Of a DNA stretch of 30,255 bases, positions 4,420-30,255 are shown in pieces. The position numbers were made by a program, and so were the translations under genes. The stretch comes from a virus, in IMG/VR virus record IMGVR_UViG_3300030090_005587, positions 1-30,255 of that record; one strand, given 5' to 3'. Position 1 is the stretch's first letter, and each line of letters starts with the position of its first letter. The notes below the pieces were generated by a model, which had not been told where the DNA came from, did not search any database, and saw only the letters and a program-made list of their open reading frames with translations.

Positions 4420-6050
4420 TGGCAACCACAACCCAAATACAAGAGGTAAGAGAATCTCAGCCGGTTGAAGCATATAAATTAGGTCTGTACGAGTCCGCGC
4501 AAGATTATATCACCCGGATGCAGGGCATCGATCCTGCCACCGGGAAACCGCTCGTTGATGCAGAGGGTAGGGAACTTGGACCGGTTTTACCGCCAACCCA
4601 AGCTATCGCTGGTCTTACAGCAGAACAAATTGGTGCAGGTGAACTAATCAGGACGGGTATTGGTGGTTACGAGCCGTTTCTGCAAGGCGCGTTGGCAAGC
4701 ACACAAGCAGGTCAACGTGCTATCACAGAAGGGGCTTTGCCCGGTATACAAGAGGCTTTGGGAACACAACGTGGCGCGTTATCCACACTGCGCGATGCCC
4801 AGACTCTTGCGGCAGCTACCAGGGCAGAGCCTTTCACTTTTAGAGATCAAGCACTTAGGGGTTTATCAGCCGCCGCTTCCGACATTACTGGAGCGCAGGC
4901 TGGTGTGCCGTTGCAAACTCAAGCTGCACAGCAGGGTATTACAGCGGCAGACGTAATTGGACAACGGGCAGCACGAGATGCACAAGCTCGTTTGAGTCTG
5001 GGCGCACAACAAGCCAGACAAATAGCTGGCACAGGTCAGCGTGATTTACTGGCTGCAAGACAGGGGTTGGCGGGTGCAGAGGCACAGTTTGACCCGAGTG
5101 GCATCGGTCAATTTATGGACCCGTATATCAGCCAAGTTGTAGAGCAGGCCCGAAAAGAGGTGATGCGAACTGGGGAGTTGCAAAAGCAACAAGCTGATGC
5201 CCAAGCCATAGCGGCGGGTGCTTTTGGTGGTTCTCGGGGCGAGGTTCAAAGAGCGGAAATAGATCGGGCCGTCAATGAACAAATTGCAAGACAAACCGCT
5301 GGTTTATTGAGCCAAGGGTTCGGTCAGGCACTTGGTGCCGCGCAACAAGCTTTTGAAGCTGGCAAAGGACGACAACTCCAACGCGCAGGGATAGCGGGGC
5401 AACTGGCACAAACACAAGCTGGTCTCGGATTACAAGGCACGGCCGTCGGACAGCAGGCGGCCCAGACAGGTGCTCAACTAGGATTACAAGCGGCGCAACT
5501 AGGTCAGCGTGGTGCTCTCTCTGGTGGACAGCTTGGTCTGCAAGGTCAGCAGGCCTTGGCTCAAATGGCTGGTCAGAGAGCAGACATCGCAAGAACAGGC
5601 GGTCAGTTGGGACTCCAGTTTGGTCAATTGGGGCAAGCAGATGTTAGTCAGTTGGCTGCATTGGCTGGTCAACAAGCGCAGACTGCCCAAGGCATCGGGT
5701 CGTTAGCGGCACAAGGCGGTCAGCTTGGCGGCAGACTCGCTTCGATGGGTCAAATACAAGCCGCTCTGGGGCAACAGGCTCAACAGCAAAGAGCCGCTGA
5801 CGCACAGCAGTTATTAGGATTTGGCGGTATGCAGCAACAACAGGCGCAAAATGTATTGAATGCACAGTTTGCCGCTGAACAGGCTGCCTACGCACAGCCT
5901 TTACAACAACTTGGTTTCTTGGGTGATCTGACCAAGGCACTGCCTTCATCACAAAGCTCAATCTTGCAACAAAATGCACCCAATCCCGGTCTCGGGCAAC
6001 AGGTCGCTGGTTTGGCACTGGGTGCCGCTGCACTCGGGAGGGCGTTTTAA
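4419..6050 (+). CDS. Gln/Ala-rich repetitive virion protein, probable internal/ejection protein
   Basis: A 543-residue protein with an extreme bias to Gln, Ala, Gly and Leu. Residues of about 330-450 contain degenerate short repeats built on QLGLQ and GQQA, likely a long helical or coiled-coil rod. The segment PYISQVVEQARKEVMR near residue 230, followed by GAFGGSRGE, and the ending QQVAGLALGAAALGRAF match a type of internal or tail protein I recall from marine podoviruses. No enzyme motif was found. The gene shares single-base stop/start overlaps with both neighbours (TGATG and TAATG), so it is part of one co-translated virion cluster. It may form an inner core or injection conduit together with the proteins on each side; that role is inferred from composition and position. 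Confidence 0.6.
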   Translation: MATTTQIQEVRESQPVEAYKLGLYESAQDYITRMQGIDPATGKPLVDAEGRELGPVLPPTQAIAGLTAEQIGAGELIRTGIGGYEPFLQGALASTQAGQRAITEGALPGIQEALGTQRGALSTLRDAQTLAAATRAEPFTFRDQALRGLSAAASDITGAQAGVPLQTQAAQQGITAADVIGQRAARDAQARLSLGAQQARQIAGTGQRDLLAARQGLAGAEAQFDPSGIGQFMDPYISQVVEQARKEVMRTGELQKQQADAQAIAAGAFGGSRGEVQRAEIDRAVNEQIARQTAGLLSQGFGQALGAAQQAFEAGKGRQLQRAGIAGQLAQTQAGLGLQGTAVGQQAAQTGAQLGLQAAQLGQRGALSGGQLGLQGQQALAQMAGQRADIARTGGQLGLQFGQLGQADVSQLAALAGQQAQTAQGIGSLAAQGGQLGGRLASMGQIQAALGQQAQQQRAADAQQLLGFGGMQQQQAQNVLNAQFAAEQAAYAQPLQQLGFLGDLTKALPSSQSSILQQNAPNPGLGQQVAGLALGAAALGRAF

Positions 6051-15282: not shown

Positions 15283-16812
15283 ATGATAGAACAATTTTCA
15301 AAAATATTTGACGGATTACAAGCTGCCTACGGCACATATAAGATCAATGGCCGAGACACAAAGGGCAAAGCCACTGGCAAAGCAACCGTCGTAAAAGAAT
15401 CTCGGACCACGGAGACCTGGGAAGCACATTTATCCGGGCAGCAGTCCATCGGTATCATCCCCATCAACGAAGACAACGAATGCAAATGGGGTTGTATTGA
15501 TATCGACGAGTACAACTTCGATCATCAGAAGCTACTCAAACAATTACAAAACGCAAAATTACCTTTGGTGGTGTGCCGCAGTAAGTCTGGTGGTGCCCAC
15601 GTGTTTTTATTTACAGCAGAGTTCATACCAGCCAAAGACATGCAAGAGACGTTGAAACGTCTAGCAGTGTCTCTGGGCTATGGTTCTTGTGAAATATTCC
15701 CAAAACAAATAGTGCTACATCTGGAGCGGGGTGATGTCGGGAACTTTCTCAACACGCCTTACTTTGATCACGAGAATGGCTTGCGGTATGCCTTCAAGGC
15801 AGATGGTACTGCCGCCACAATAGAAGAGTTTTTTGAGTTGCACGAGCAGAACGTGCAGACCCACGAGCAAGTGCTGGCATTGACAGTAGAAGAGGACCCG
15901 GATCTTCCGTTGAAGGACGGACCACCCTGTCTTCAGATGCTATGTCGAGATGGCATACCAGAAGGTGCGAGAAACAATGGACTGTTCAACCTCGGGGTGT
16001 ACCTACGCAAAGCCAACCCTGACGGTTGGGAGTCAGAGATCCTCGAACACAACATGAAGTTCATCCATCCACCGCTGCCTTTGGGTGAGGTCAACACAGT
16101 AGCCAAGCAGTTAGAAAGAAAAGATTACGCCTACAAATGCTCTGACGCACCAATCAACTCCGTGTGCAACCGAGAACTTTGTATGACCCGAAAGTTTGGT
16201 ATCGACGGTGTAGTGACCGGGGTACAGATAGCTAATCTTAGAAAGTATAACAGTACACCGCCGGTCTGGTTCCTCGATGTGATGGGTCAGCCGCTAGAGA
16301 TGCAGACAGATGATTTGTTGAACCAAGCTGCTTTCCAAAAAGCCTGTGTAGACCAACTGAACTTCCTGCCCAGAACAATCAAAAAAGATATGTGGGAGAC
16401 CCGCATCAACGGGTTGCTCAGTGAGATGTCAGATACAGAAGGCAGCATCATTGAAGTGTCTGAGGATGTCAGTGTCAATGGTCAGTTTAACGACCATCTG
16501 GAAGACTTCTGCACAGGCCACCAAGCGGCAGAAGAAAGAGAGCAGATACTATTGAAGAGACCTTGGACCGACGCAGAGAGAGGCGAGACCTATTTTAGAT
16601 TGAAAGATCTTGAGTCACACTTGATTAAAGCAAACTTCAAGCATTTCAAGACACACCAAATTGCACAGCGGTTACGGGATCTCAACGGGCATAGTTCGTT
16701 GTTGAAAATACAAGGCAAGCAAATCAGACTGTGGCGCATACCTTCGTTTGACATGGACAAATCTGAATTGAAAACACCCCAGTTCACAAAAGAAGAAGAG
16801 ATACCTTTTTGA
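15283..16812 (+). CDS. Archaeo-eukaryotic type primase (TOTE/PrimPol-like)
   Basis: A 509-residue protein. The catalytic hDhD motif is CIDIDEY with D73 and D75. The nucleotide-binding motif is SKSGGAHVFLF (100-110, H106), and EIFPKQ (137-142) and GNFLNTPYF (153-161) complete the pattern of the AEP primase domain found in TOTE systems and in phages. A middle region (about 213-305) carries C216, C221, C286, C295 and C300 (CNRELC at 295-300), a likely metal or Fe-S site. The protein would make primers for PolA and may also extend them. It ends KEEEIPF, like an SSB C-terminal tip. The following helicase gene starts in a TGATG overlap, implying coupled synthesis. There is no good ribosome binding site before the ATG. 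Confidence 0.8.
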   Translation: MIEQFSKIFDGLQAAYGTYKINGRDTKGKATGKATVVKESRTTETWEAHLSGQQSIGIIPINEDNECKWGCIDIDEYNFDHQKLLKQLQNAKLPLVVCRSKSGGAHVFLFTAEFIPAKDMQETLKRLAVSLGYGSCEIFPKQIVLHLERGDVGNFLNTPYFDHENGLRYAFKADGTAATIEEFFELHEQNVQTHEQVLALTVEEDPDLPLKDGPPCLQMLCRDGIPEGARNNGLFNLGVYLRKANPDGWESEILEHNMKFIHPPLPLGEVNTVAKQLERKDYAYKCSDAPINSVCNRELCMTRKFGIDGVVTGVQIANLRKYNSTPPVWFLDVMGQPLEMQTDDLLNQAAFQKACVDQLNFLPRTIKKDMWETRINGLLSEMSDTEGSIIEVSEDVSVNGQFNDHLEDFCTGHQAAEEREQILLKRPWTDAERGETYFRLKDLESHLIKANFKHFKTHQIAQRLRDLNGHSSLLKIQGKQIRLWRIPSFDMDKSELKTPQFTKEEEIPF

Positions 16813-18338
16813 TGTTTCGTTTGTTTGGACCACCGGGAACTGGCAAAACCACCACACTACTGAATCTGGTTGACAAGGCTCTCGCAGAGGGCACACCACC
16901 ACACAAGATTGCATTCTTTGCGTTTACCCGCAAGGCAGCATCTGAGGCAAAAGAAAGAGCTTCTGTACGTTTTGGATTAGATCCAAAAGCAGATCTGCCA
17001 TATTTTCGTACCATACACTCGTTGGCTTTCTTTTTGACCGGTCTGAAGAGTGACCAACTGATGACAGCGGCACACTACCGGGAAGTCGAAAACAAAATAG
17101 GCATCAGCTTAGTGTCGGGAGAAACCAGACTGCACGAGGTTGAAGAGGACCTCACTAACAGCCTACGCAAGGAGTCGCCCATTCTGAGGTTGATCACGTT
17201 GTCGCGCTTGAAAAAGACATTGCTGCGGCATGAATATAATTTCAGCGATATCGAGTACAACTGGCTGGAAGTGGATTACGTGGCACGGTCCTTGGACCAA
17301 TACAAGAAAGAACACAACCTGTTTGATTACACCGACATGTTGGAGTTGTTCGCCAAATCAGCACACGAGACGTGTCCAAAGTTTGAGCTTGCGATGATTG
17401 ACGAGGCACAAGATCTCAGTCCGTTGCAGTGGGAGATTGCCCACGCAATAGAAAAGAAGTCACGGCAGATGTACTGCGCGGGAGACGACGACCAGGCTAT
17501 TTACAAATGGAGTGGGGCAGACGTTGATCATTTCATCAATCTGCCGGGTAGCAGCGAGGTGCTCGAGCAAAGCTACCGGGTGCCAAGTAAAATACATGAG
17601 CTTGCCAACCGAGTATGTGCCCGGATCGTAAGGAGATTTCCAAAAAACTACCTACCAAAAAAAGAAGAGGGTTCGGTTAAGAGGATCACCGGGTTTGAAG
17701 AATTAGATTTGAGAGAAGGCACTTGGCTGTTTTTATCGCAGGCTAAGTTTCATTTGCAGGGGGCACATAACTTTTTGAAATCACAGGGTTATTTTTACGA
17801 ATATTCTGGCGGTAAGCCTAGTGTGCGTTTGAAAGTAAGGCAGGCACTCGAAGCGTGGAGATTGTTGCAAGCTGGTAAACCGGTTGTATTTGATTTGGTA
17901 AAAGTTTTATACAGCTACATGACGGGCAACGGTGTCAGAATAGCCAGAGGACATAAGAAGATTATTGGGGAAGAAGACGACACTTTTACTTTTGAGGAAC
18001 TGAGAGACCATCATGGTCTGTTGGCGAATCGAGATATGGAGTGGCACGAGGCTTTGGATAAGATACCGGGCGTGGACGTGGCTTATGTCAACGCACTGGT
18101 GCGGCGAGGCGAAGATCTCACCAAAGAACCTCGAATCAAGTTGTCAACAATCCACGGGGCAAAAGGCGGTGAAGCAGAGAACGTGGTCCTGTACACGGAC
18201 CTGACCGTTGCAGCAGAAGAATCAATGGAGCGCGATGCGGATAGTATCCACCGGGTGTTCTATGTTGCTGTGACTCGCTCGATGCGTAACCTTTTTATCG
18301 TGGAACCCGAAAATTTTAACAGGAGTTACGCGTTGTGA
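16812..18338 (+). CDS. SF1 helicase of the UvrD/Rep type
   Basis: A 508-residue helicase starting at the ATG in the TGATG overlap; a TTG immediately before it is less likely. Walker A is GPPGTGKT (6-13), motif Ia is AFTRKAASEA (37-46), motif II is IDEAQD (196-201), motif III is GDDDQAIYKW (224-233), motif IV is QSYRVP (253-258), motif V is STIHGAKGGEAENVV and motif VI is VAVTRSMRNL near the end. All motifs are intact. It is about 200 residues shorter than bacterial UvrD or PcrA, so accessory subdomains must be reduced. It is the best candidate for the 3'-5' helicase of this replisome, since no DnaB-type helicase is seen. It lies between primase and polymerase, and a four-base GTGA overlap links it to the next gene. 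Confidence 0.9.
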   Translation: MFRLFGPPGTGKTTTLLNLVDKALAEGTPPHKIAFFAFTRKAASEAKERASVRFGLDPKADLPYFRTIHSLAFFLTGLKSDQLMTAAHYREVENKIGISLVSGETRLHEVEEDLTNSLRKESPILRLITLSRLKKTLLRHEYNFSDIEYNWLEVDYVARSLDQYKKEHNLFDYTDMLELFAKSAHETCPKFELAMIDEAQDLSPLQWEIAHAIEKKSRQMYCAGDDDQAIYKWSGADVDHFINLPGSSEVLEQSYRVPSKIHELANRVCARIVRRFPKNYLPKKEEGSVKRITGFEELDLREGTWLFLSQAKFHLQGAHNFLKSQGYFYEYSGGKPSVRLKVRQALEAWRLLQAGKPVVFDLVKVLYSYMTGNGVRIARGHKKIIGEEDDTFTFEELRDHHGLLANRDMEWHEALDKIPGVDVAYVNALVRRGEDLTKEPRIKLSTIHGAKGGEAENVVLYTDLTVAAEESMERDADSIHRVFYVAVTRSMRNLFIVEPENFNRSYAL

Positions 18339-18577
18339 CTGAGGATAACGTAAACCAACCTAAGCACTACCTGATCGGCGGGATCGAGGCCATCGACGCA
18401 ATGGTCATGGTGTTTGGGGCCAAGTCAGTCAAACTTTACTGTCTATGCAATGCTTTCAAGTATCTGTGGCGATGTATGCACAAAGGGAAAGAAACAGAAG
18501 ACATCAAAAAGGCGATTTGGTATTTACGTTTTGCTATCGGTGACGACCCGCGAAAAGACCATGCAAAAAGAAACTAG
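18335..18577 (+). CDS. DUF3310 family small protein
   Basis: An 80-residue protein using a GTG start that overlaps the helicase stop (GTGA), with AGGAG about nine bases upstream. It has the DUF3310 pattern: VNQPKHY near the N-terminus, GGIEAIDAM, then CNAFKYLWRCMHKGKETEDI and KKAIWYLRFAI. Members are common in phage replication regions, and some are annotated as nucleotide kinases, but I know of no firm basis for that activity. The polymerase start lies inside its last codons (17-base overlap), so the two are likely co-translated. Expected to act in nucleotide metabolism or replication; function unproven. Confidence 0.8.
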   Translation: MTEDNVNQPKHYLIGGIEAIDAMVMVFGAKSVKLYCLCNAFKYLWRCMHKGKETEDIKKAIWYLRFAIGDDPRKDHAKRN

Positions 18578-20471
18578 ATTACAGTTTCCGTTGTTCACCC
18601 CGAAGTCGGAGTGGACACCACCATTCGAGTTACGAGATCTCACGGGTTGCAAAGAGATAGCCGTGGACCTCGAGACACGTGACCCGAACCTCAAACAGAA
18701 CGGACCCGGTTGGCCCAGAAAGGACGGTGATGTCGTAGGCATCGCTGTTGCAACGGATGGTTGGGAAGCTTACTACCCAATCGCTCATACCGGCGGCGGC
18801 AACCTGGACAAGGGCATAGTTATGCGCTGGCTGCAAAAACAGATGCAGACTGATTGTCCTAAGATCATGCACAACGCACCATACGACCTCGGCTGGCTGA
18901 AAGCATCCGGTATTGAAGTCAACGGTGACATCGTAGACACGATGGTGATGGCTGCCCTACTTGACGAGAATCGTTTTAGCTACAGCTTGAACGCTCTGTC
19001 ATACGATTACCTCGGCGAGGCCAAGTCAGAAAAGCTTTTGACTGAAGCTGCGGTAGAGTTTGGTGTCGATCCGAAGGGAGAGCTATGGAAGCTGCCATCC
19101 CAGTTTGTTGGTCCGTATGCCGAGCAGGATGCCCGGTTGGCCTATGATCTTTACAAGTTTTTCAAGCTTGAAATCAACAAAGAAGGACTCGAGACAATCT
19201 TCGATCTCGAAACACGGCTCACGCCCTGTCTCATCGATATGACGTTCCGGGGGGTAAGAATCGACCTTGAAAAGTGTGAAAGGACGAAGCAAGAGCTCTT
19301 AAAGGAAGAAAAACAAAAGCTCAAGCAAATCAACGACTTAGCGGGTATGGACGTTGAGATCTGGGCAGCAGCATCTTTGGCAAAAGCATTCGATAAGTTA
19401 GGCATCAAATACGCCCGGACGCAGACCGGACAGCCGTCATTTACCAAGGTCTTTTTGTCTGAGCACCCGCACGAGTTCGCGAAGCTGGTTGTCGAAGCAC
19501 GTAACCTTAACAAGGTACAAGGCACGTTTATTACCTCAATTATGAAGTATGTATCCAAAGAGGGACGTATACATGGGCACATCAACCAGTTGAGATCTGA
19601 CGAGGGCGGGACGGTAAGCGGACGGTTATCCATGAACAACCCCAACCTACAGCAGATCCCGGCCAGAGATCCAAAGCTAGGACCCCTGATTCGTAGTTTG
19701 TTTTTGCCAGAAGAAGATGAGCAGTGGGCTGCAATCGACTTCTCGCAACAGGAACCACGGATCTTGTGTCATTACGCAGATATCTTTGGTGAATGGAAGA
19801 ACAACCCGCTCAAAGGAGCGAAAGAGTTTGTCGCGGCATATAACGACGATCCAAACACCGACTTCCATACAATGGTGTCCGAGATGGCAAAAATACCCCG
19901 CAAGCAAGCAAAAACCATCAACCTAGGGCTGATGTATGGCATGGGTGTCAATAAGATGGCTGGTGAGCTTGACTTGTCCGTAGACGAGGCAAAAGAGATA
20001 ACGCAGCAATACCATGCCCGGGTGCCTTTTGTAAGAGAATTAATGCAGGGCGTGTCGAGATCGGTAGATACCAAGGAAGATGGGTCCATACGCAGCCTCA
20101 AAGGTCGTAAGTGCCGTTTTAATATGTTTGAGCCGGTAGGGTACGACTTGAAGAAAGCCATGCCTAGAGCGGAAGCTAAGGCCGTCTACGGCGATACTAC
20201 GCCTTTACGACGTGCATACACCTACAAGGCTTTGAATCGATTGATACAAGCCAGTGCAGCCGATATGACAAAACAAGCGATGGTTGACCTGTATGAAGCG
20301 GGTGAGCTACCACTTATCCAGGTTCACGATGAGCTAGGCTGTAGTGTTATGAACGCAGACCACGCACGACGGATCAAAAAGGTCATGGAAGAGGCCATAG
20401 AACTCAGGGTTCCTAATAAATGTGACATTGACCTTGGACCAAGCTGGGGAGAAGCGAAAGAACTTGCGTAG
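18561..20471 (+). CDS. polA: Family A DNA polymerase with 3'-5' proofreading exonuclease
   Basis: A 636-residue replicative polymerase. The start ATG lies within the end of the DUF3310 gene; longer in-frame starts would extend deep into that gene. The exonuclease motifs are VDLET (D36, E38), HNAPYDLGW (104-112) and YAEQDARLAYDL (186-197, D190). Polymerase motif A is DFSQQEPR (D393), motif B is RKQAKTINLGLMYG (447-460) and motif C is HDE (589-591). The residue equivalent to E. coli F762 is Leu455. There is no 5'-3' nuclease domain, as is usual for phage enzymes of this length. Together with the primase, putative SSB and helicases it would copy the phage genome. Only a weak GAAAAG precedes the ATG. 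Confidence 0.95.
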   Translation: MQKETRLQFPLFTPKSEWTPPFELRDLTGCKEIAVDLETRDPNLKQNGPGWPRKDGDVVGIAVATDGWEAYYPIAHTGGGNLDKGIVMRWLQKQMQTDCPKIMHNAPYDLGWLKASGIEVNGDIVDTMVMAALLDENRFSYSLNALSYDYLGEAKSEKLLTEAAVEFGVDPKGELWKLPSQFVGPYAEQDARLAYDLYKFFKLEINKEGLETIFDLETRLTPCLIDMTFRGVRIDLEKCERTKQELLKEEKQKLKQINDLAGMDVEIWAAASLAKAFDKLGIKYARTQTGQPSFTKVFLSEHPHEFAKLVVEARNLNKVQGTFITSIMKYVSKEGRIHGHINQLRSDEGGTVSGRLSMNNPNLQQIPARDPKLGPLIRSLFLPEEDEQWAAIDFSQQEPRILCHYADIFGEWKNNPLKGAKEFVAAYNDDPNTDFHTMVSEMAKIPRKQAKTINLGLMYGMGVNKMAGELDLSVDEAKEITQQYHARVPFVRELMQGVSRSVDTKEDGSIRSLKGRKCRFNMFEPVGYDLKKAMPRAEAKAVYGDTTPLRRAYTYKALNRLIQASAADMTKQAMVDLYEAGELPLIQVHDELGCSVMNADHARRIKKVMEEAIELRVPNKCDIDLGPSWGEAKELA

Positions 20472-20499
20472 TATCCCTGACCATCCTATACTCTCGCAG

Positions 20500-20673
20500 A
20501 TGGACACTGAAAAATATAAGTCAATTGCGGTCCCTCGAAGCGTATATCAGGACATCAAGATCCTGGCAAAGCATGAGGACCGTCCTATCAGTAAACAATT
20601 GGTAAAGATTCTCAGGGAATGGGAACAAGACCGTATCCGCGAGGCAGAACGTCTCACGGAACGTCTCCCATAG
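20500..20673 (+). CDS. Ribbon-helix-helix (Arc/CopG-like) DNA-binding protein
   Basis: A 57-residue protein from the ATG at 20500. KYKSIAVPRSVYQDIKILAK reads as the strand and first helix of a ribbon-helix-helix fold, and PISKQLVKILREWEQ as the second helix; the tail is charged. Such dimers bind short operators and often regulate their own operon. The start is uncertain: in-frame TTG 20464 (with GGGGAG about 12 bases upstream) or GTG 20422 (inside polA) would add 12 or 26 residues, and the ATG has no clear ribosome binding site. It is the last gene of the replication run and could act at the dyads near 13.78 kb or 24.3 kb; that is speculation. Confidence 0.6.
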   Translation: MDTEKYKSIAVPRSVYQDIKILAKHEDRPISKQLVKILREWEQDRIREAERLTERLP

Positions 20674-21178: not shown

Positions 21179-21448
21179 TCACAGTATCTTCTTTTCTGTC
21201 ACCTCAAAGTCTGCACCAGCTAGAAATTTAGTCTGTTCCTTGAGTGCTTGCGGGTGATGCGGTTCACTAGTCATCGTCATACCCATCAGTTGAAGTGTCG
21301 GGGGGTTCTCTTTCATACCCTCTTCGATTTTTTTCATCAACGGATGTTCACGGACCTGGTTCATTGACAACGACTGATAGACCACTGTGGTCGGTTTTGC
21401 CGTAGCCAAGTTTTGATACGTTACCGCCATTGTAAACTTTCTAACCAT
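21179..21448 (-). CDS. Hypothetical protein, last gene of the minus-strand island
   Basis: An 89-residue protein, not recognised. The start chosen is the ATG preceded by AAGGAG about eight bases upstream; it overlaps the end of the previous gene by eight bases. A longer in-frame version would lie inside that gene. The sequence is rich in Met, Thr and Lys (TTVVYQSLSMNQVREHP, LQLMGMTMTSEP) and has no membrane segment or known motif. The coupling to its neighbours and the strong ribosome binding site support a real gene. Confidence 0.6.
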   Translation of the reverse strand: MVRKFTMAVTYQNLATAKPTTVVYQSLSMNQVREHPLMKKIEEGMKENPPTLQLMGMTMTSEPHHPQALKEQTKFLAGADFEVTEKKIL

Positions 21449-21854
21449 CCGTAATCTCCTTGATTCCTTCGTTGATGATCTGACGTTTTTTCTGCTCCAG
21501 CAACTCCACCGCATCTACTAGGCCTTTTTCCAAACGTTTAAGGTCAAGCTCAGTAATCTTGATAGGTTCGATATCAACGTGGTCTAGGTCACTGTTTTCG
21601 AAATACTCCAGCACTTCCGACATTAAGTTACGGTCCCATGACATACCTTCAAAGTGATCCTTCCAAGCTTTCCACGTTTGTTTTTCATTAGGGTGCGGTA
21701 ATTCATCGCACCAATCTTCAACGGTCTTTACACAAGCCCAGACAGCGTTGAATTGATCTTCCGTTAGATGAAACTCTTTATCGTTCTCACCACCCATGAC
21801 CAACGTCGCATAGGCATCATATTGCTTTGGTGTTTTATCATTCCACTTCATCAT
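21441..21854 (-). CDS. Hypothetical acidic protein of the minus-strand island
   Basis: A 137-residue protein of unknown function. It is Trp-rich and acidic in the first two thirds (HLTEDQFNAVWACVKTVEDW, WKAWKDHFEGMSWDR), followed by LDHVDIEPIKITELDLKRLE and a charged helix. It overlaps the upstream gene by 17 bases and the downstream gene by eight. Two adjacent ATG codons are possible starts; GAGGAG lies four bases before the first and seven before the second (21851), so the second may be used. The acidic, small, soluble character is like phage proteins that bind host factors, but nothing specific is recognisable. Confidence 0.65.
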   Translation of the reverse strand: MMKWNDKTPKQYDAYATLVMGGENDKEFHLTEDQFNAVWACVKTVEDWCDELPHPNEKQTWKAWKDHFEGMSWDRNLMSEVLEYFENSDLDHVDIEPIKITELDLKRLEKGLVDAVELLEQKKRQIINEGIKEITDG

Positions 21855-22284
21855 TTTTCTCCTCTAGTCGAACCAGCAAACTACTCTCTGGATCGGGTTT
21901 CAGAAATATAGAGATGTAACCGTGGTCCGATATCGGCTGGTCGTACTCCTCGTTTATCTCCAGCTCCACGCCATGTGGCCCTTCGTCCGTGTCCAAGTAA
22001 AAACTCAAACGACAGAAAAAGTAACTAAGCAAAAAGGTGAATTCTTGCAATGACAGTATGTCACTCAAGCTGCCAATGTCCCGCGCCTTGTATTTATACT
22101 CAGCATGAAAGTCGATCATCCGTTTTTGCGACTTAATCATCTTGTCTAATTGCTCTCGGACATCCCCGGATTTCTGAATCTCGCCTTCAAGCGCAAGCTC
22201 CAGCGCATCGATCTTATCCAGATACTTATCGCACTGCCTTTTCCAGTGCTCGATCTCTTCAACTAACTCAGCCTTCTTCTTCAT
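21838..22284 (-). CDS. Hypothetical coiled-coil protein of the minus-strand island
   Basis: A 148-residue protein, not recognised. Residues of about 1-60 are a strongly predicted coiled coil (ELVEEIEHWKRQCDKYLDKI, then LELALEGEIQKSGDVREQLD). The C-terminal half is a beta-rich, acidic domain (HGVELEINEEYD, GYISIFLKPDPESSLLVRLE) preceded by an aromatic stretch LLSYFFCRLSFYLD. The start has GAGGAG seven bases upstream, and the gene overlaps its neighbours by 17 bases on both sides. No enzyme motif. Confidence 0.65.
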   Translation of the reverse strand: MKKKAELVEEIEHWKRQCDKYLDKIDALELALEGEIQKSGDVREQLDKMIKSQKRMIDFHAEYKYKARDIGSLSDILSLQEFTFLLSYFFCRLSFYLDTDEGPHGVELEINEEYDQPISDHGYISIFLKPDPESSLLVRLEEKNDEVE

Positions 22285-23167
22285 CTCTTTTCTCCTCTTT
22301 TCTTAACAAATGACGCTGCAAAAAGTCTGTCAACGCCTGCTTATGTTGCCCAGTGCCATACCACACCAGACCTTCCATCAAACGACCAATCACTCTTTGA
22401 TATGTGAGTTTGCCCGTGCCACTACCGGCATTGGCCCTGACCGCTTTGTCCCTTACTTCTCTGACCGTGTACTGCATCTCTGAGAACCCGGTCCAATCCT
22501 GACCCACAGCCAGGACATAAAGATCATTACCGCGAGGCTTTTGCTTCTGTGCAATCTTCATCGTCATAAACGTGTTGACCAGCAAATCCAAATTGTCAAT
22601 CGTGAAAGACGCATACTTTGAATAATCTTTCTTATCGACAACCTGTAGCTCCGGGACCAGTTCCGTTTCTTCTTCCGGCTCCGGCTGCACAACTTCCTGC
22701 TTGATCACCACAACATTGCTCTTGCTTCGCGGACCTTGGTCCGCTTTACGGGCCTCTACTGCTTGTAGTGCCCGTGAGATCTTTTTTTCTGTGGATACGC
22801 CGACCTCTTCTGGTTCGACTTCTCTCTCGAACTCTTCCAGTGATATCGCCTCGTGGTTCATAAACTCCACACGACGACTAGATATCTCGACGATGCGCTT
22901 CTCTTCCAACAAAACCGCATTCTCGTGATGTCTCCATCCCGTAGGGTTCAATAACTGAGCTACGTCGATCATCAATCCAGACTTGTCTACTAGGTTGCCC
23001 ATCAAGACCTGGTTAATAACGTAGCCGTTCAACTCCCGCTGCTCGTGGTCCACGACCTCAAAGAGTTGTTCCGGGATCACACTAGCCCCATCAGGCAGCG
23101 GATCTTTCTTCAATCTTCTTACTACACGCTCGAAGATCATTCCTTTTCTAAGTTGGTCTGCTTTCAT
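22268..23167 (-). CDS. Hypothetical two-domain protein of the minus-strand island
   Basis: A 299-residue protein, the largest of this island and not recognised. The N-terminal part (1-110) starts MKADQLRKGMIFERVVRRLK and looks like a compact alpha/beta domain. Residues of about 110-190 are a charged, Glu/Pro/Val-rich linker (VVQPEPEEETELVPELQVVD). The C-terminal domain (about 190-285) contains DLYVLAVGQDWTGFSEMQYT and KLTYQRVIGRLMEGLVWYG and may be helical. GAGGAG seven bases before the ATG supports the start. It begins a second block of the island after a gap of about 80 bases that holds a hairpin. Confidence 0.65.
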   Translation of the reverse strand: MKADQLRKGMIFERVVRRLKKDPLPDGASVIPEQLFEVVDHEQRELNGYVINQVLMGNLVDKSGLMIDVAQLLNPTGWRHHENAVLLEEKRIVEISSRRVEFMNHEAISLEEFEREVEPEEVGVSTEKKISRALQAVEARKADQGPRSKSNVVVIKQEVVQPEPEEETELVPELQVVDKKDYSKYASFTIDNLDLLVNTFMTMKIAQKQKPRGNDLYVLAVGQDWTGFSEMQYTVREVRDKAVRANAGSGTGKLTYQRVIGRLMEGLVWYGTGQHKQALTDFLQRHLLRKEEKRDEEEG

Positions 23168-23186
23168 TCACTTCTCCTCTAAAAAT

Positions 23187-23220
23187 CCCGCCAGACGGCC
23201 CACCCGGACGGGAACGGGTG
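23187..23220. promoter_or_regulatory. Alternative hairpins in the gap inside the minus-strand island
   Basis: CACCCG (23201-23206) pairs with CGGGTG (23215-23220) over an eight-base loop. Alternatively TCCCG (23187-23191) pairs with CGGGA (23209-23213); the two overlap and exclude each other. The gap of 81 bases (23168-23248) is the only sizeable one within the island, so this may be a partial terminator or processing site. There is no U-run on the minus strand after the stem. Confidence 0.3.
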
Positions 23221-23248
23221 TTCTAAGGCTGGAGTAGCCCTGGCCTAT

Positions 23249-23491
23249 TCAATGAATCTCCATGCTTTGGTTTTCACGCATCTCTGCTTTAGCACTGTCC
23301 CAATCGAACTCGACCATGCTTCTCGCAAGATCCACTTCTCGTTCAGAAAGGTCCAACTCCTTGCCACCAAGACATTCTTTGAAAACTCTTTCAAATTCTT
23401 TTTTCGATGAACCGTCTGTCGAAACCACGGCGATCCGTAAACACAAAACCAAAAAGACAAAATCGTTAGGGATTTCGGGCTGACGGCTCAC
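23249..23491 (-). CDS. Hypothetical small acidic protein, GTG start
   Basis: An 80-residue protein of unknown function. The GTG start overlaps the stop of the upstream gene in a GTGA, with GAGGAA about eight bases upstream. The N-terminal third is hydrophobic (FVFLVLCLRIAVVS), which could be a buried strand-helix or one membrane segment; the rest is charged (FERVFKECLGGKELDLSERE). No known motif. Coupling with the upstream gene is the best evidence that it is real. Confidence 0.6.
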   Translation of the reverse strand: MSRQPEIPNDFVFLVLCLRIAVVSTDGSSKKEFERVFKECLGGKELDLSEREVDLARSMVEFDWDSAKAEMRENQSMEIH

Positions 23492-23751
23492 GATTCTTCC
23501 TCACGGGCCTTGTATCTCGGTTCCATACGTTGGGTAACATCATTGTGTACCCAGTTGTAACCGCTCTGTTCTGTAACCGTGTTGTACAGATTTTTCATGC
23601 GGAAATGTGCCTGATGCAGCACGACACCCGCATAATTATCCGGGCTATCCGATTCTTGGCTCTCGTAACTGGTCTCTGCCAAATCATCGGTTGTTGTGCG
23701 TAACAGGTCCACAAGCAACGCCATTTGGTCGTCATTCAAATCAATCTGCAT
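23488..23751 (-). CDS. Hypothetical small acidic protein
   Basis: An 87-residue protein, not recognised. It begins MQIDLNDDQMALLVDLLRTT and is acidic and helical in the first half (ETSYESQESDSPDN); the second half holds HQAHFRMKNLYNTV and WVHNDVTQRMEPRYK. An AAGGAG lies eight bases upstream of the ATG. The start shares one base with the upstream stop (TAATG), and its own stop overlaps the next GTG. The N-terminal pattern, a short strand followed by D-D-Q-hydrophobic helix, occurs in many small phage proteins without assigned function. Confidence 0.65.
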   Translation of the reverse strand: MQIDLNDDQMALLVDLLRTTTDDLAETSYESQESDSPDNYAGVVLHQAHFRMKNLYNTVTEQSGYNWVHNDVTQRMEPRYKAREEES

Positions 23752-23924
23752 TAGTTCTTCTCCTTGCTTAGTTTGATGCAGCGTTTACACGCTTCTTGAT
23801 TTGGTAAGAGTTCAACAAACATGTCCAAAGGGACGGTTCTGTCGCTCGTCTCGCCACATAAAGCTCTGGTTGGGGTGAACCCGCCCATTTTGATATGGAG
23901 ACGTTCCCCGTTATATTCTGCCAT
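23751..23924 (-). CDS. Hypothetical 57-residue protein with a possible Cys zinc site
   Basis: A short gene found by reading the gap on the minus strand. The translation starts MAEYNGERLHIKMGGF and contains ALCGET and a later ACKRCIK. This C-G ... C-x-x-C arrangement, with a nearby His, resembles a small zinc-knuckle, though only three cysteines are present. It ends KLSKEKN. It has GGGAG about eight bases before the ATG, and single-base TAATG overlaps join it to both neighbours. The coupling on both sides and conserved-looking cysteines make it convincing despite its size. Function unknown. Confidence 0.6.
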   Translation of the reverse strand: MAEYNGERLHIKMGGFTPTRALCGETSDRTVPLDMFVELLPNQEACKRCIKLSKEKN

Positions 23925-24097
23925 TACTTTTTCTCCCGGCTTTTGGTTGGTTTGGTTGCGGGTCTATCCAAGATCGCCATCTTCAAGATCGTGTCTTGGT
24001 CTTTCTTGATTTGTTCGACATCAGCCAGCAACTGCTGCCACTGGCTCAAAAATTCTTCTACCTGTTCTTCGGGAACTGTGAGCTTGATTTCGATCAT
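23924..24097 (-). CDS. Hypothetical 57-residue coiled-coil protein, first gene of the minus-strand island
   Basis: A short gene read on the minus strand. It starts MIEIKLTVPEEQVEEFLSQW, continues with a helical, coiled-coil-like segment (QQLLADVEQIKKDQDTIL) and has a basic tail ending TKSREKK. Its stop overlaps the next ATG (TAATG). The ribosome binding site is weak (GGA about six bases upstream), unlike the other genes in the island. It lies directly downstream of a candidate leftward promoter at 24130-24157, making it the first gene of the island transcript. Not recognised. Confidence 0.55.
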   Translation of the reverse strand: MIEIKLTVPEEQVEEFLSQWQQLLADVEQIKKDQDTILKMAILDRPATKPTKSREKK

Positions 24098-24129
24098 TTT
24101 GTTCCATTTAAGATATGGGAATATGGGAA

Positions 24130-24157
24130 CTTATAGTACAGCGCATACAAAAACAAG
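24130..24157 (-). promoter_or_regulatory. Candidate leftward promoter of the minus-strand island
   Basis: On the minus strand, TATAAG (complement of 24130-24135) matches five of six bases of the -10 consensus. CTTGTT (complement of 24152-24157) lies 16 bases upstream as a weak -35. Transcription would start about 25 bases before the first gene of the island. Immediately downstream is a tandem ATATGGGA repeat (24113-24128 on the plus strand). Confidence 0.45.
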
Positions 24158-24203
24158 GGGTTTTTGATTAAATCGCGTATATACATAGTACTTTTTCGGG
24201 AAA

Positions 24204-24240
24204 AAATATTTTTTTAAAAAAAGTTTTTTTCAAAATGGTG
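24204..24240. other. A/T tract beside the repeat array
   Basis: The stretch is made of homopolymer runs of A and T, including AAAAAAA-G-TTTTTTT and AAAAAATATTTTTTT arrangements. Such tracts are easily unwound and are typical next to iterons at replication origins. They could equally act as a bend or an UP element for a promoter. Confidence 0.5.
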
Positions 24241-24328
24241 TCGATAGTGTCGATAGTGTAACCTTCCCTTTGAAAACGGGCGTTTCAAGGGTTACACCAG
24301 GGTTACACCACTCAATAATGGTGTAACC
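24241..24328. repeat. Repeat array with four GTGTAACC octamers: candidate origin or operator
   Basis: TCGATAGTG is repeated in tandem at 24241-24249 and 24250-24258. GTGTAACC occurs at 24256-24263 and 24321-24328, and its complement GGTTACAC at 24290-24297 and 24301-24308. GGGTTACACCA is a perfect tandem 11-mer (24289-24299, 24300-24310). The two right-hand copies form a perfect 10-bp dyad (24301-24328, eight-base spacer). Between the first and second copies, CCCTT-T-GAAA (24266-24275) pairs with TTTCAAGGG (24283-24291). The order +,-,-,+ beside an A/T tract, between divergent transcription units, is what one expects of an initiator or repressor binding region. Confidence 0.7.
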
Positions 24329-24330
24329 TT

Positions 24331-24359
24331 CTGGCAAAAAACGCACGAGTGCATATAAG
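24331..24359 (+). promoter_or_regulatory. Candidate rightward promoter for the terminase small subunit region
   Basis: CTGGCA (24331-24336, four of six bases of the -35 consensus) and TATAAG (24354-24359, five of six of the -10) are 17 bases apart. The -35 begins three bases after the last GTGTAACC copy, so a protein bound to the array would affect this promoter. The leader to the ATG at 24442 is about 75 bases and A/T-rich, with no clear ribosome binding site. Confidence 0.5.
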
Positions 24360-24441
24360 GGCTGAAATTTTTTATTTTGTAAGAAATTATTTTCTTCTGA
24401 AAAGTTGTATAGAGAAACGCTGTTTAATAGAATCCTCAGAC

Positions 24442-24981
24442 ATGGCAGAAGCAGTCAAGACCGAAACCCGGGGCAGGCCCCCAATCTCAGAGAACACAAG
24501 GCTCACCGGCAAGCAGTTGAAGTTTGTTGAACTGTATTGCACCCGAGAAGGAACTGAGACCCTCCAAAACCTTGCAATCGAAGCAGGGTTTAGTAAATCG
24601 GGTGCTCATACGAGGGCGTATGAGATGCTGAACCCGAAGAAAAGCCCTCATATATGCAAAGCAGTCCGGGAGCGCAAGGCCGAACTCAACGAGAAGTATG
24701 CTGTTACCTACGGGCAGCATTTAGCTGATCTTGGCAAGATCCGAGACGCAGCCTACGCCAACCAAAACTATGCCGGGGCCGTTGCTGCTGAAAAGGCTAG
24801 AGGGCAAGCTGCCGGGTTGTATGTTAGTAAGTCAGAAATAAGGCACGGTAGCATCGACCAAATGTCGAAAGAAGAAGTCAAAAAAGCACTGGATGATTTG
24901 AAACGACAACTGGGTGAAAGGGTAATCGAACATGAACCAGACGGAGTCGAGCTTTTGGAAGAGGCTGAAAAAAAGACTTGA
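24442..24981 (+). CDS. terS: Terminase small subunit
   Basis: A 179-residue protein with the layout of the Terminase_2-type small subunit. A basic N-terminus (TRGRPPISENTRLTGKQLKF) leads into the helix-turn-helix region (about 22-60: LTGKQLKFVELYCTREGTET, IEAGFSKSGAHTRAYEML). A charged oligomerisation part follows, with a coiled-coil-like end (MSKEEVKKALDDLKRQLGER). It would recognise the packaging site and load the large subunit. An in-frame upstream start exists at 24349 but would translate the A/T-rich leader, so the ATG before MAEAVK is preferred. Notably, the large subunit is 4.2 kb away rather than adjacent. A nuclease gene overlaps its end by 50 bases. Confidence 0.85.
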   Translation: MAEAVKTETRGRPPISENTRLTGKQLKFVELYCTREGTETLQNLAIEAGFSKSGAHTRAYEMLNPKKSPHICKAVRERKAELNEKYAVTYGQHLADLGKIRDAAYANQNYAGAVAAEKARGQAAGLYVSKSEIRHGSIDQMSKEEVKKALDDLKRQLGERVIEHEPDGVELLEEAEKKT

Positions 24982-28824: not shown

Positions 28825-29213
28825 GCTCACCGTTTAATCAGTGAAACTTGCCGGGCCCCGGTGCCCGGTCCACCCGCCAAAAATTTTTGGGATCGGTCCG
28901 AGATCCCCGCGAACCGAACCGCGAACCGAAAACCGCGCCCCCTGGCACACGATCCGCGATCCAAAAACCCCGCGTCCTGGTCAAAGTGATATCACTGTGC
29001 GACGTGGTCCCCGGTCCGGGTCCCCCGGGCAATCGAGGCTAGCCGGACGGCCGCGACTCGAGATCCGCGAACCGGGATCGGCGCAGAATGGCCCGGCCCG
29101 GCGCACCTGTACCGGTGCAACTTTTCCGCAAACAATTACCAAAAAAATAAGAATGGCTTTCACTGGCAAAAAAACCTGCTATTCTGCCCCCAGATCCGTG
29201 GTCTGGGACCCCT
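28825..29213. other. GC-rich, palindrome-rich non-coding block before terL
   Basis: No credible gene. From about 28850 to 29120 the sequence is much more GC-rich than its surroundings and holds perfect palindromes CCAAAAATTTTTGG (28877-28890) and AGTGATATCACT (28985-28996). It also has a tandem 12-mer CGCGAACCGAA(C/A) (28908-28931), the hairpin GCACC/GGTGC (about 29103-29118), and six GATC sites in about 200 bases. The final 90 bases are A/T-richer and include a weak promoter-like TATTCT (29180-29185). Candidates are a packaging (pac/cos) site, a structured leader or a regulatory site. Confidence 0.45.
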
Positions 29214-30255
29214 ATGAATCTAGCCTTGGACACTGCCGAAGAGACCCAAAAACTCCGCTTAGAACTGCGTCTAAAGCAGTTGGAGAAGGTTGAAGCTTGT
29301 CACCAAGAATTTTTACCATTTGTCCGTAGCATGTGGCCTGGGTTCATTGCAGGCCGTCACCACCACATCATTGCCGAGAAGCTTGAACAGATTGCCAACG
29401 GCAAGTTGAAGCGTTTGATTATCAACATGCCCCCGCGACACACAAAATCTGAGTTCGCGTCATATTTGTTTCCTGCATGGATGATCGGTCGCAAGCCAGA
29501 CATGAAGATCATTCAAGCCACGCACACGACTGAGTTGGCTGTGAACTTTGGTCGTAAGGTCAAAAACCTTTTGGAGACGGACGAGTATCAGGAGATCTTT
29601 GAAAATACGCAGTTGTCACAGGACAGCAAGGCATCTGGCCGGTGGGATACTAAATCTGGTGGTATGTATTACGCCGTGGGCGTTGGTTCGAACTTGGCAG
29701 GACGTGGTGGTGATCTGATTATTATTGACGATCCGCATTCGGAGCAGACTGCAATGTCCGCGAGTGGGTTTGAGAATGCTTGGGAATGGTATACGGCGGG
29801 TCCTCGTCAGCGATTGCAGCCTGGTGGCGCGATAGTTCTGGTACAAACCAGGTGGTCCGAGAAGGACATGACAGGAAACCTGATCCGTCAAATGGCTAGG
29901 GACCCCCACGCAGATCAGTGGGAGGTTGTCGAACTACCTGCCATATTACCGAGTGGCGAACCAACGTGGCCCGAGTTTTGGAAACGTGAGGAGTTGGAAA
30001 GTGTAAAAGCTTCTATACCCCCGTATCAGTGGAATGCCCAGTATCAGCAGGCTCCGACATCTGAAAGTCTGGCGATTCTGAAACGCGAGTGGTGGAAGAT
30101 ATGGGAAGGTGCGAATGTCCCGAATCTTCAGTATGTGATACAGAGCTACGATACGGCGTTCTCGAAACGCGAAACGGCGGACTATAGTGCGATTACGACG
30201 TGGGGTGTTTTTTACCCGGAGGAGGCTGGCGGACCGGCGGCTCTGATACTACTGG
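29214..30255 (+). CDS. terL: Terminase large subunit (partial, 3' end beyond window)
   Basis: The first 347 residues of the packaging motor; the frame is open to the right edge. The ATPase domain has the phage-type Walker A MPPRHTKS (72-79), Walker B LIIIDDPHSE (168-177) and the coupling motif QTRW (211-214). The C-terminal nuclease domain begins at about 310 with QSYDTAFSKRETADYS, whose D313 is the probable first metal ligand. The ATG is followed by a charged coiled-coil-like segment (residues 10-28). There is no strong ribosome binding site; GGGACCCCT precedes the ATG. The gene is separated from terS by 4.2 kb. Portal and capsid genes are expected after the window. Confidence 0.95.
   Translation, partial: MNLALDTAEETQKLRLELRLKQLEKVEACHQEFLPFVRSMWPGFIAGRHHHIIAEKLEQIANGKLKRLIINMPPRHTKSEFASYLFPAWMIGRKPDMKIIQATHTTELAVNFGRKVKNLLETDEYQEIFENTQLSQDSKASGRWDTKSGGMYYAVGVGSNLAGRGGDLIIIDDPHSEQTAMSASGFENAWEWYTAGPRQRLQPGGAIVLVQTRWSEKDMTGNLIRQMARDPHADQWEVVELPAILPSGEPTWPEFWKREELESVKASIPPYQWNAQYQQAPTSESLAILKREWWKIWEGANVPNLQYVIQSYDTAFSKRETADYSAITTWGVFYPEEAGGPAALILL

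Follow-up and report, generated by a model that had tools for sequence, protein, structure and literature searches.

The 30,255-bp IMG/VR virus record analyzed here (the window) contains a compact group of short repeats beside an A/T tract, and it raises the question of what these repeats do and which protein reads them. To our knowledge, few replication origins have been described for uncultivated tailed phages. The window encodes tail/virion-type genes, an SNF2 helicase, an AEP-type primase, a UvrD-like helicase, a family A DNA polymerase, a small RHH protein, TerS, and a Hjc-like nuclease. We consider it probable (about 0.77) that the array serves a marine podovirus-like phage as its iteron-type replication origin, recognized by the phage's own AEP (archaeo-eukaryotic) primase. 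A replication start is the most likely reading because the repeat units change in step with two primase residues across dozens of phages.

Six repeat units beside an A/T tract

The array consists of six copies of one unit at 24236-24328, of which units 1 to 3 are direct, units 4 and 5 inverted, and unit 6 direct. Units 1 to 3 follow one another in steps of ~9 bp; after a 26-bp spacer, units 4 and 5 stand 11 bp apart, and a gap of ~10 bp precedes unit 6. The parts are as follows.

24200-24234, no strand: A/T tract adjoining unit 1; candidate melting region, from its sequence
24236-24244, + strand: unit 1 (TGGTGTCGA), direct repeat, 9-bp step; position conserved in relatives
24245-24253, + strand: unit 2 (TAGTGTCGA), direct repeat, 9-bp step; position conserved in relatives
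24254-24263, + strand: unit 3 (TAGTGTAACC), containing the octamer at 24256-24263
24264-24289, no strand: 26-bp spacer with a weak inverted repeat; similar length in relatives
24290-24298, - strand: unit 4 (GGTTACACC), inverted; 11- to 12-bp spacing to unit 5 conserved
24301-24309, - strand: unit 5 (GGTTACACC), inverted; identified by repeat match, geometry conserved
24320-24328, + strand: unit 6 (GGTGTAACC), direct; found in most relatives

The first-pass annotation had listed four octamers in the order +,-,-,+, a 10-bp dyad, tandem 11-mers, tandem TCGATAGTG, and an A/T run, all of which we located in the sequence. Exact matches to the octamer GTGTAACC number four (24256+, 24290-, 24301-, and 24321+) and lie within 73 bp, compared with 0.70 expected for the whole window. 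The perfect dyad pairs 24301-24310 with 24319-24328, and 24290-24299 also pairs with this arm; the 11-mers (AGGGTTACACC) start at 24288 and 24299. The array is therefore real but larger than had been described, with six units, the TCGATAGTG pair at 24241 and 24250 being part of the three direct units.

The array had also been thought to touch the -35 element of a rightward promoter. This was not borne out: the sole scanner candidate, GTTACA-17-AATAAT at 24291-24319, lies inside the array (3 matches were found by the promoter scan, versus a mean of 1.1 in shuffles), and the promoter-like pair that is kept in relatives lies at 24405-24433, ~77 bp from the array. The latter pair, TTGTAT-17-TAGAAT (24405-24442), falls below the scanner threshold; its spacing is retained in relatives while its sequence drifts. 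It ends ~8 bases before the terS ATG, so that terS may be transcribed leaderless. Two other repeats were seen in the window. A tandem ATATGGGA ATATGGGA at 24113-24128, before the leftward genes, is mostly retained in close relatives, and a GC-rich region at 28860-29260 contains repeated CCGCGAACC and CCGCGATCC words, similar to words that fill the pre-terS region of relatives with ~72% TerS identity.

Conservation of the array among related phages

Relatives were collected by TerS, giving 272 loci in viral contigs, 80 of which were kept. A geometry scan that ignores unit sequence found no match in 0.9 Mb of shuffled control DNA; for most relatives of which sufficient sequence was available, each contig gave a single array. 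We conclude that the array is not due to chance. Conservation in related contigs, which the first-pass annotation had proposed as a check, thus holds for the geometry; the unit sequence varies. In contigs with 76 to 99% identical TerS, the layout was unchanged and lay at a similar distance before terS, and the unit sequence was different, changing in all copies of an array together. Units of GTGTAACC occur in the window, L005, L014, and L015, and also in L017, L022, and L025 of the 86% lineage. Units of GTGTACCC (B-type) occur in L007 to L011 and L013, GTGTTACC/GTGTGAC units in L018, L023, and L026, CGGGACC units (D-type) in L027, and GTGTTACC with GTGTTCCA units in L028 and L029. L019 and L020 have hybrid arrays, and the units of the E lineage are mixed. 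An A/T-rich tract lies on the same side of unit 1 in nearly all relatives and is mostly replaced in L005.

Where a contig holds both, the array is usually 6 to 10 kb beyond the primase gene. Flanking genes and their directions differ from clade to clade, while the array, the A/T tract, and the primase stay together; the placement between divergent genes noted at first is therefore not general. In the clade with ~72% TerS identity the array is present ~4 kb from terS, a distance that speaks against the suggested link between replication and packaging control. Since the array occurs in other gene settings and, in one clade, well away from terS, we conclude that it is an element of its own and not an accessory of terS.

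No array was recognized in DSL-LC04, which has a related primase, or within ~10 kb in L332 and L288. In L267, mixed units (GTGTC, GTAAC, and GTGTC) lie ~7.7 kb downstream of the primase gene, and the primase has Thr473. No single contig pairs a B-type or D-type array with a primase; overlaps among L143, L095, and L094 only hint that the L143-type primase tail (KLKIQGKQT) may go with the B-type array. By the same logic of matched wing and unit, phages with the L027 array would be expected to differ at the wing tip, and L332/L336-type tails, which have Gln473-Met474, to go with an unusual unit. Searches found no prophage relatives in genome contigs and, among named phages, nothing closely related to 24100-24981 at the DNA level. 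The leftward genes at 21179-24097 form a mosaic in which near-identical phages have exchanged one large gene as well as small ones; for example, L020 has a 372-amino-acid (aa) gene at the position of a 500- to 630-aa gene in L022, L026, and L018.

Covariation of the units with the primase C terminus

Three replication genes of the window, all on the + strand, are relevant here.

15283-16812, + strand: AEP-type primase, the proposed initiator; Pfam AEP-TOTE (PF22548), 56 bits, cut-off 27
16564-16743, + strand: predicted winged helix, primase residues 428-487, from AlphaFold2 models and covariation
16809-18338, + strand: UvrD-like helicase (Pfam PF00580), likely replication partner
18480-20471, + strand: family A DNA polymerase (Pfam PF00476), likely primer extension

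Seven shared proteins were divided into 654 windows, and the divergence of each was correlated with that of the array. The five best of the 654 were all within primase residues 466-502, which span the wing of the predicted C-terminal winged helix, with r up to 0.96. For seven contigs, the distance between primase tails followed the distance between arrays (r, 0.95; exact permutation P, 0.0008), also when the rest of the primase was taken into account (partial r, 0.93). Pairs of phages gave the same picture. G002 and G005 have identical TerS, 99% identical g190 and g284, and different arrays, and 8 of the 14 differences between their primases fall in residues 480-495. The window primase is 92% identical to that of G002 (~78% at the DNA level), with the same wing residues and the same array units. 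In G007, where terS and its flanks come from another lineage, a C-type array was predicted from the primase tail and then found. The primase tail was first noticed in a single contig pair; the scan of all windows, G007, and the contigs added later guard against bias from this. A patch of UvrD and PolA were also considered as readers; their fit to the array is poorer than that of the primase wing.

The covariation can be assigned to single residues and bases. Outside the window clade, Val or Ala at residue 473 goes with A at base 3 of the unit (GTAACC), and Leu or Gln goes with T (GTTACC and GGTACA), in 32 of 32 phages; automatic unit calls agreed with the calls used in all 32. Lys at residue 475 goes with a pyrimidine at base 6 and Arg with a purine (37/37 phages), a rule that was noted only after the data had been seen. 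Among ~350 variable primase columns, no other column separates either set perfectly. Twelve contigs were added after the residue-473 rule had been set down, and all 12 obey it. Parallel pairs of primase tails (ESRL/ESRV, ESTL/ESTV, ESVL/ESVV, and ESML/ESMV) each go with T/A, which argues against shared ancestry alone. On a tree built without the primase tail, the traits change 6 to 9 times. Well-supported branches give four independent pairs per trait (those for base 3 counted outside the window clade), and all agree, a number with which a sign test cannot reach 0.05. Within the window clade the residue-473 rule fails, as Leu occurs with A (window, L142, and L145) and Ala with T (G007); there, the wing tip at residues 480-481 differs instead (QI, TT, and RV).

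The primase C terminus is predicted to be a winged helix. In the AlphaFold2 models, the covarying residues 473, 475, 480, and 481 all lie in the two strands of the wing (470-476 and 479-487). One position separates residues 473 and 475 on their strand, and both side chains should therefore point to the same side. The top PDB matches of the primase model were Prim-Pol and RepB' primase. By sequence, PriCT_1 scored 15 to 20 bits against a cut-off of 21.1, and no solved homologues were found.

Proposed origin function, alternatives, and known systems

As in iteron origins, short direct repeats (units 1 to 3 and 6) are grouped in a compact non-coding region, units 4 and 5 being inverted; an A/T-rich stretch lies beside them; and, on comparative evidence, the primase wing that covaries with the unit supplies a cognate initiator of matching specificity. 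The earlier suggestion of an initiator-binding origin thus gains comparative support from the conserved architecture and the covariation with the DNA-binding end of the primase, and the repressor switch offered beside it may be a second role of the array. We infer that the primase binds the array, that the adjoining DNA melts, and that replication starts there. The C-terminal winged helix would bind all six units, its conserved helix (QRLRD) contacting the part of the unit that stays constant and its beta wing (473, 475, and 480-481) the bases that vary. With several primases bound, to direct as well as inverted units, they would help to melt the A/T tract and would lay the first primers there, which the phage PolA, together with the UvrD-like helicase, would extend. 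The skew check proposed in the first-pass annotation gave a divided result. Raw GC skew tracks gene strand; in the long contig G025 the four-fold-site minimum, at 30.1 kb, was 0.5 kb from the array, in two other contigs it was 5 to 8 kb away, and the window showed no shift. A DnaA-dependent origin was considered and rejected, the sole DnaA-box match in the window being at 4779.

Covariation shows recognition rather than purpose, so the primase might read the array as a transcription operator or as a loading site for later synthesis, not as a replication start. The mixed skew results fit this alternative, as does the arrangement in the window and its close relatives, in which divergent genes flank the array and promoter-like sequence is present to its left and right. 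However, the flanking genes of many relatives are non-divergent and vary by clade while the array, A/T tract, and primase persist, and the reader is a replication enzyme whose AEP precedents are origin binders. We therefore regard an operator or loading site as unlikely, though it is the strongest of the competing explanations. If the inverted units formed a hairpin or cruciform, as RNA or as single-stranded DNA, and pairing alone mattered, this would account for the strand folding better than shuffles (z, -3.4 for RNA and -4.2 for DNA) and for the maintenance of 5/6 pairing while the sequence changes. The inverted units explain this fold; the direct units 1 to 3 change too, though pairing is not required of them, the primase wing and the unit are coupled, and no Rfam match at gathering score was found in 24000-24600. 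Pairing alone is thus highly improbable as an explanation.

The two binders named in the first-pass annotation, the RHH protein and TerS, fared poorly. RHH proteins commonly bind short tandem and inverted repeats, and an operator for the RHH protein, whose gene is present in the window, or for another small phage repressor would be favored for that reason. Against this, the RHH strand MDTEKYKS is identical in phages with unlike arrays, RHH distance does not follow array distance in the seven contigs (r, 0.10), and the best RHH window reached an r of only 0.16. The leftward small genes, also rejected as readers, are variable, and none is common to all array-bearing phages. We give such an operator very little weight. 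As a side observation, the RHH strand (window 20422-20673) is common to very distant phages, and the residues preceding it are replaced wholesale. The position of the array just before terS in the window and many relatives would suit a cos- or pac-like site that is bound by TerS and couples replication to packaging. Yet TerS is identical in L022 and L027, which have GTGTAACC and CGGGACC units, respectively; TerS of GTGTAACC and GTGTACCC phages differs at few residues, mostly near the C terminus; TerS distance follows array distance weakly in the seven contigs (r, 0.52; P, 0.06); and the ~4-kb separation in the ~72% clade is hard to reconcile with such a site, which we consider most improbable.

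The proposed primase-read origin has partial counterparts in known systems. The ColE2 origin is one compact site, unlike the array of about six units here, and the window belongs to a tailed phage that encodes a PolA and a helicase of its own and whose primase has no match to the Pfam plasmid replicase family up to an E value of 1. As in ColE2-type Rep proteins (PMC4538821, PMC5862659), a replicon-encoded AEP primase domain (PF22548 above its cut-off, with Prim-Pol folds) is followed by a C-terminal winged/HTH DNA-binding domain, here in a predicted structure (AlphaFold2 model and fold matches). The AEP primase ColE2 Rep both binds the origin of its own replicon and makes primers for Pol I (PMC4538821), and we propose the same for the phage enzyme and its Pol I-type polymerase. 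By analogy, the array may work as iteron origins do, its reader being a ColE2-like primase that is not a sequence member of the ColE2 family. The lambda ori (protein O) and the RepA_N origins (PLE satellite) also combine repeats beside an A/T-rich tract with a cognate initiator from the same replicon (PMC4980987, PMC7145576); the array differs from them in that the proposed initiator is the primase itself and in that direct and inverted units are mixed in a fixed layout. The best DNA-binding structural match of the primase C terminus was TcpK (Foldseek probability, 1.00; VIA-align Z, 7.7; rmsd, 2.8; 83 residues), a winged helix that reads nine-nucleotide tandem repeats of the pCW3 oriT mainly with its beta wing (PMC6137059), much as we propose for the predicted winged helix and the ~9-bp units here. 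Unlike the primase domain, TcpK is a conjugation protein; it is 14% identical and not fused to a primase, and the match, with Z under 8, may reflect a common fold only.

Origin recognition by the C-terminal winged helices of AEP primases from mobile elements has so far been suggested as a prediction (PMC5862659), for which the covariation offers comparative evidence and a testable code. For a group related to HTVC023P-type pelagiphages, the origin, its likely initiator, and the base-choosing residues can be read from sequence alone. A requirement that origin and primase tip switch together would explain unlike arrays in near-identical phages. More tentatively, marine phages that occur together may carry wing and unit as matched lock-and-key types that diversify, move between lineages, and form replication compatibility groups, the wing having a readable residue-to-base code; we hold this wider picture to be possible rather than likely. 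If true, such groups, like plasmid incompatibility, would prevent phages or parasites that infect the same cell from exploiting one another's replication machinery.

No description of such an array/primase system was found in the literature searched, largely outside subscription journals, and no literature was found that names HTVC023P-type phages together with a replication origin. Pelagibacter phage HTVC023P and phage 023Pt_psg01 resemble the window in having a related primase, helicase, and PolA, and in both an array of repeats lies between genes and close to an A/T-rich stretch, with CTAGGAAA units before terS in the former (L138:11678-11771) and TGGCACA units in the latter (L137:13692-13790). 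Both differ from the window group in units, geometry, and primase C termini.
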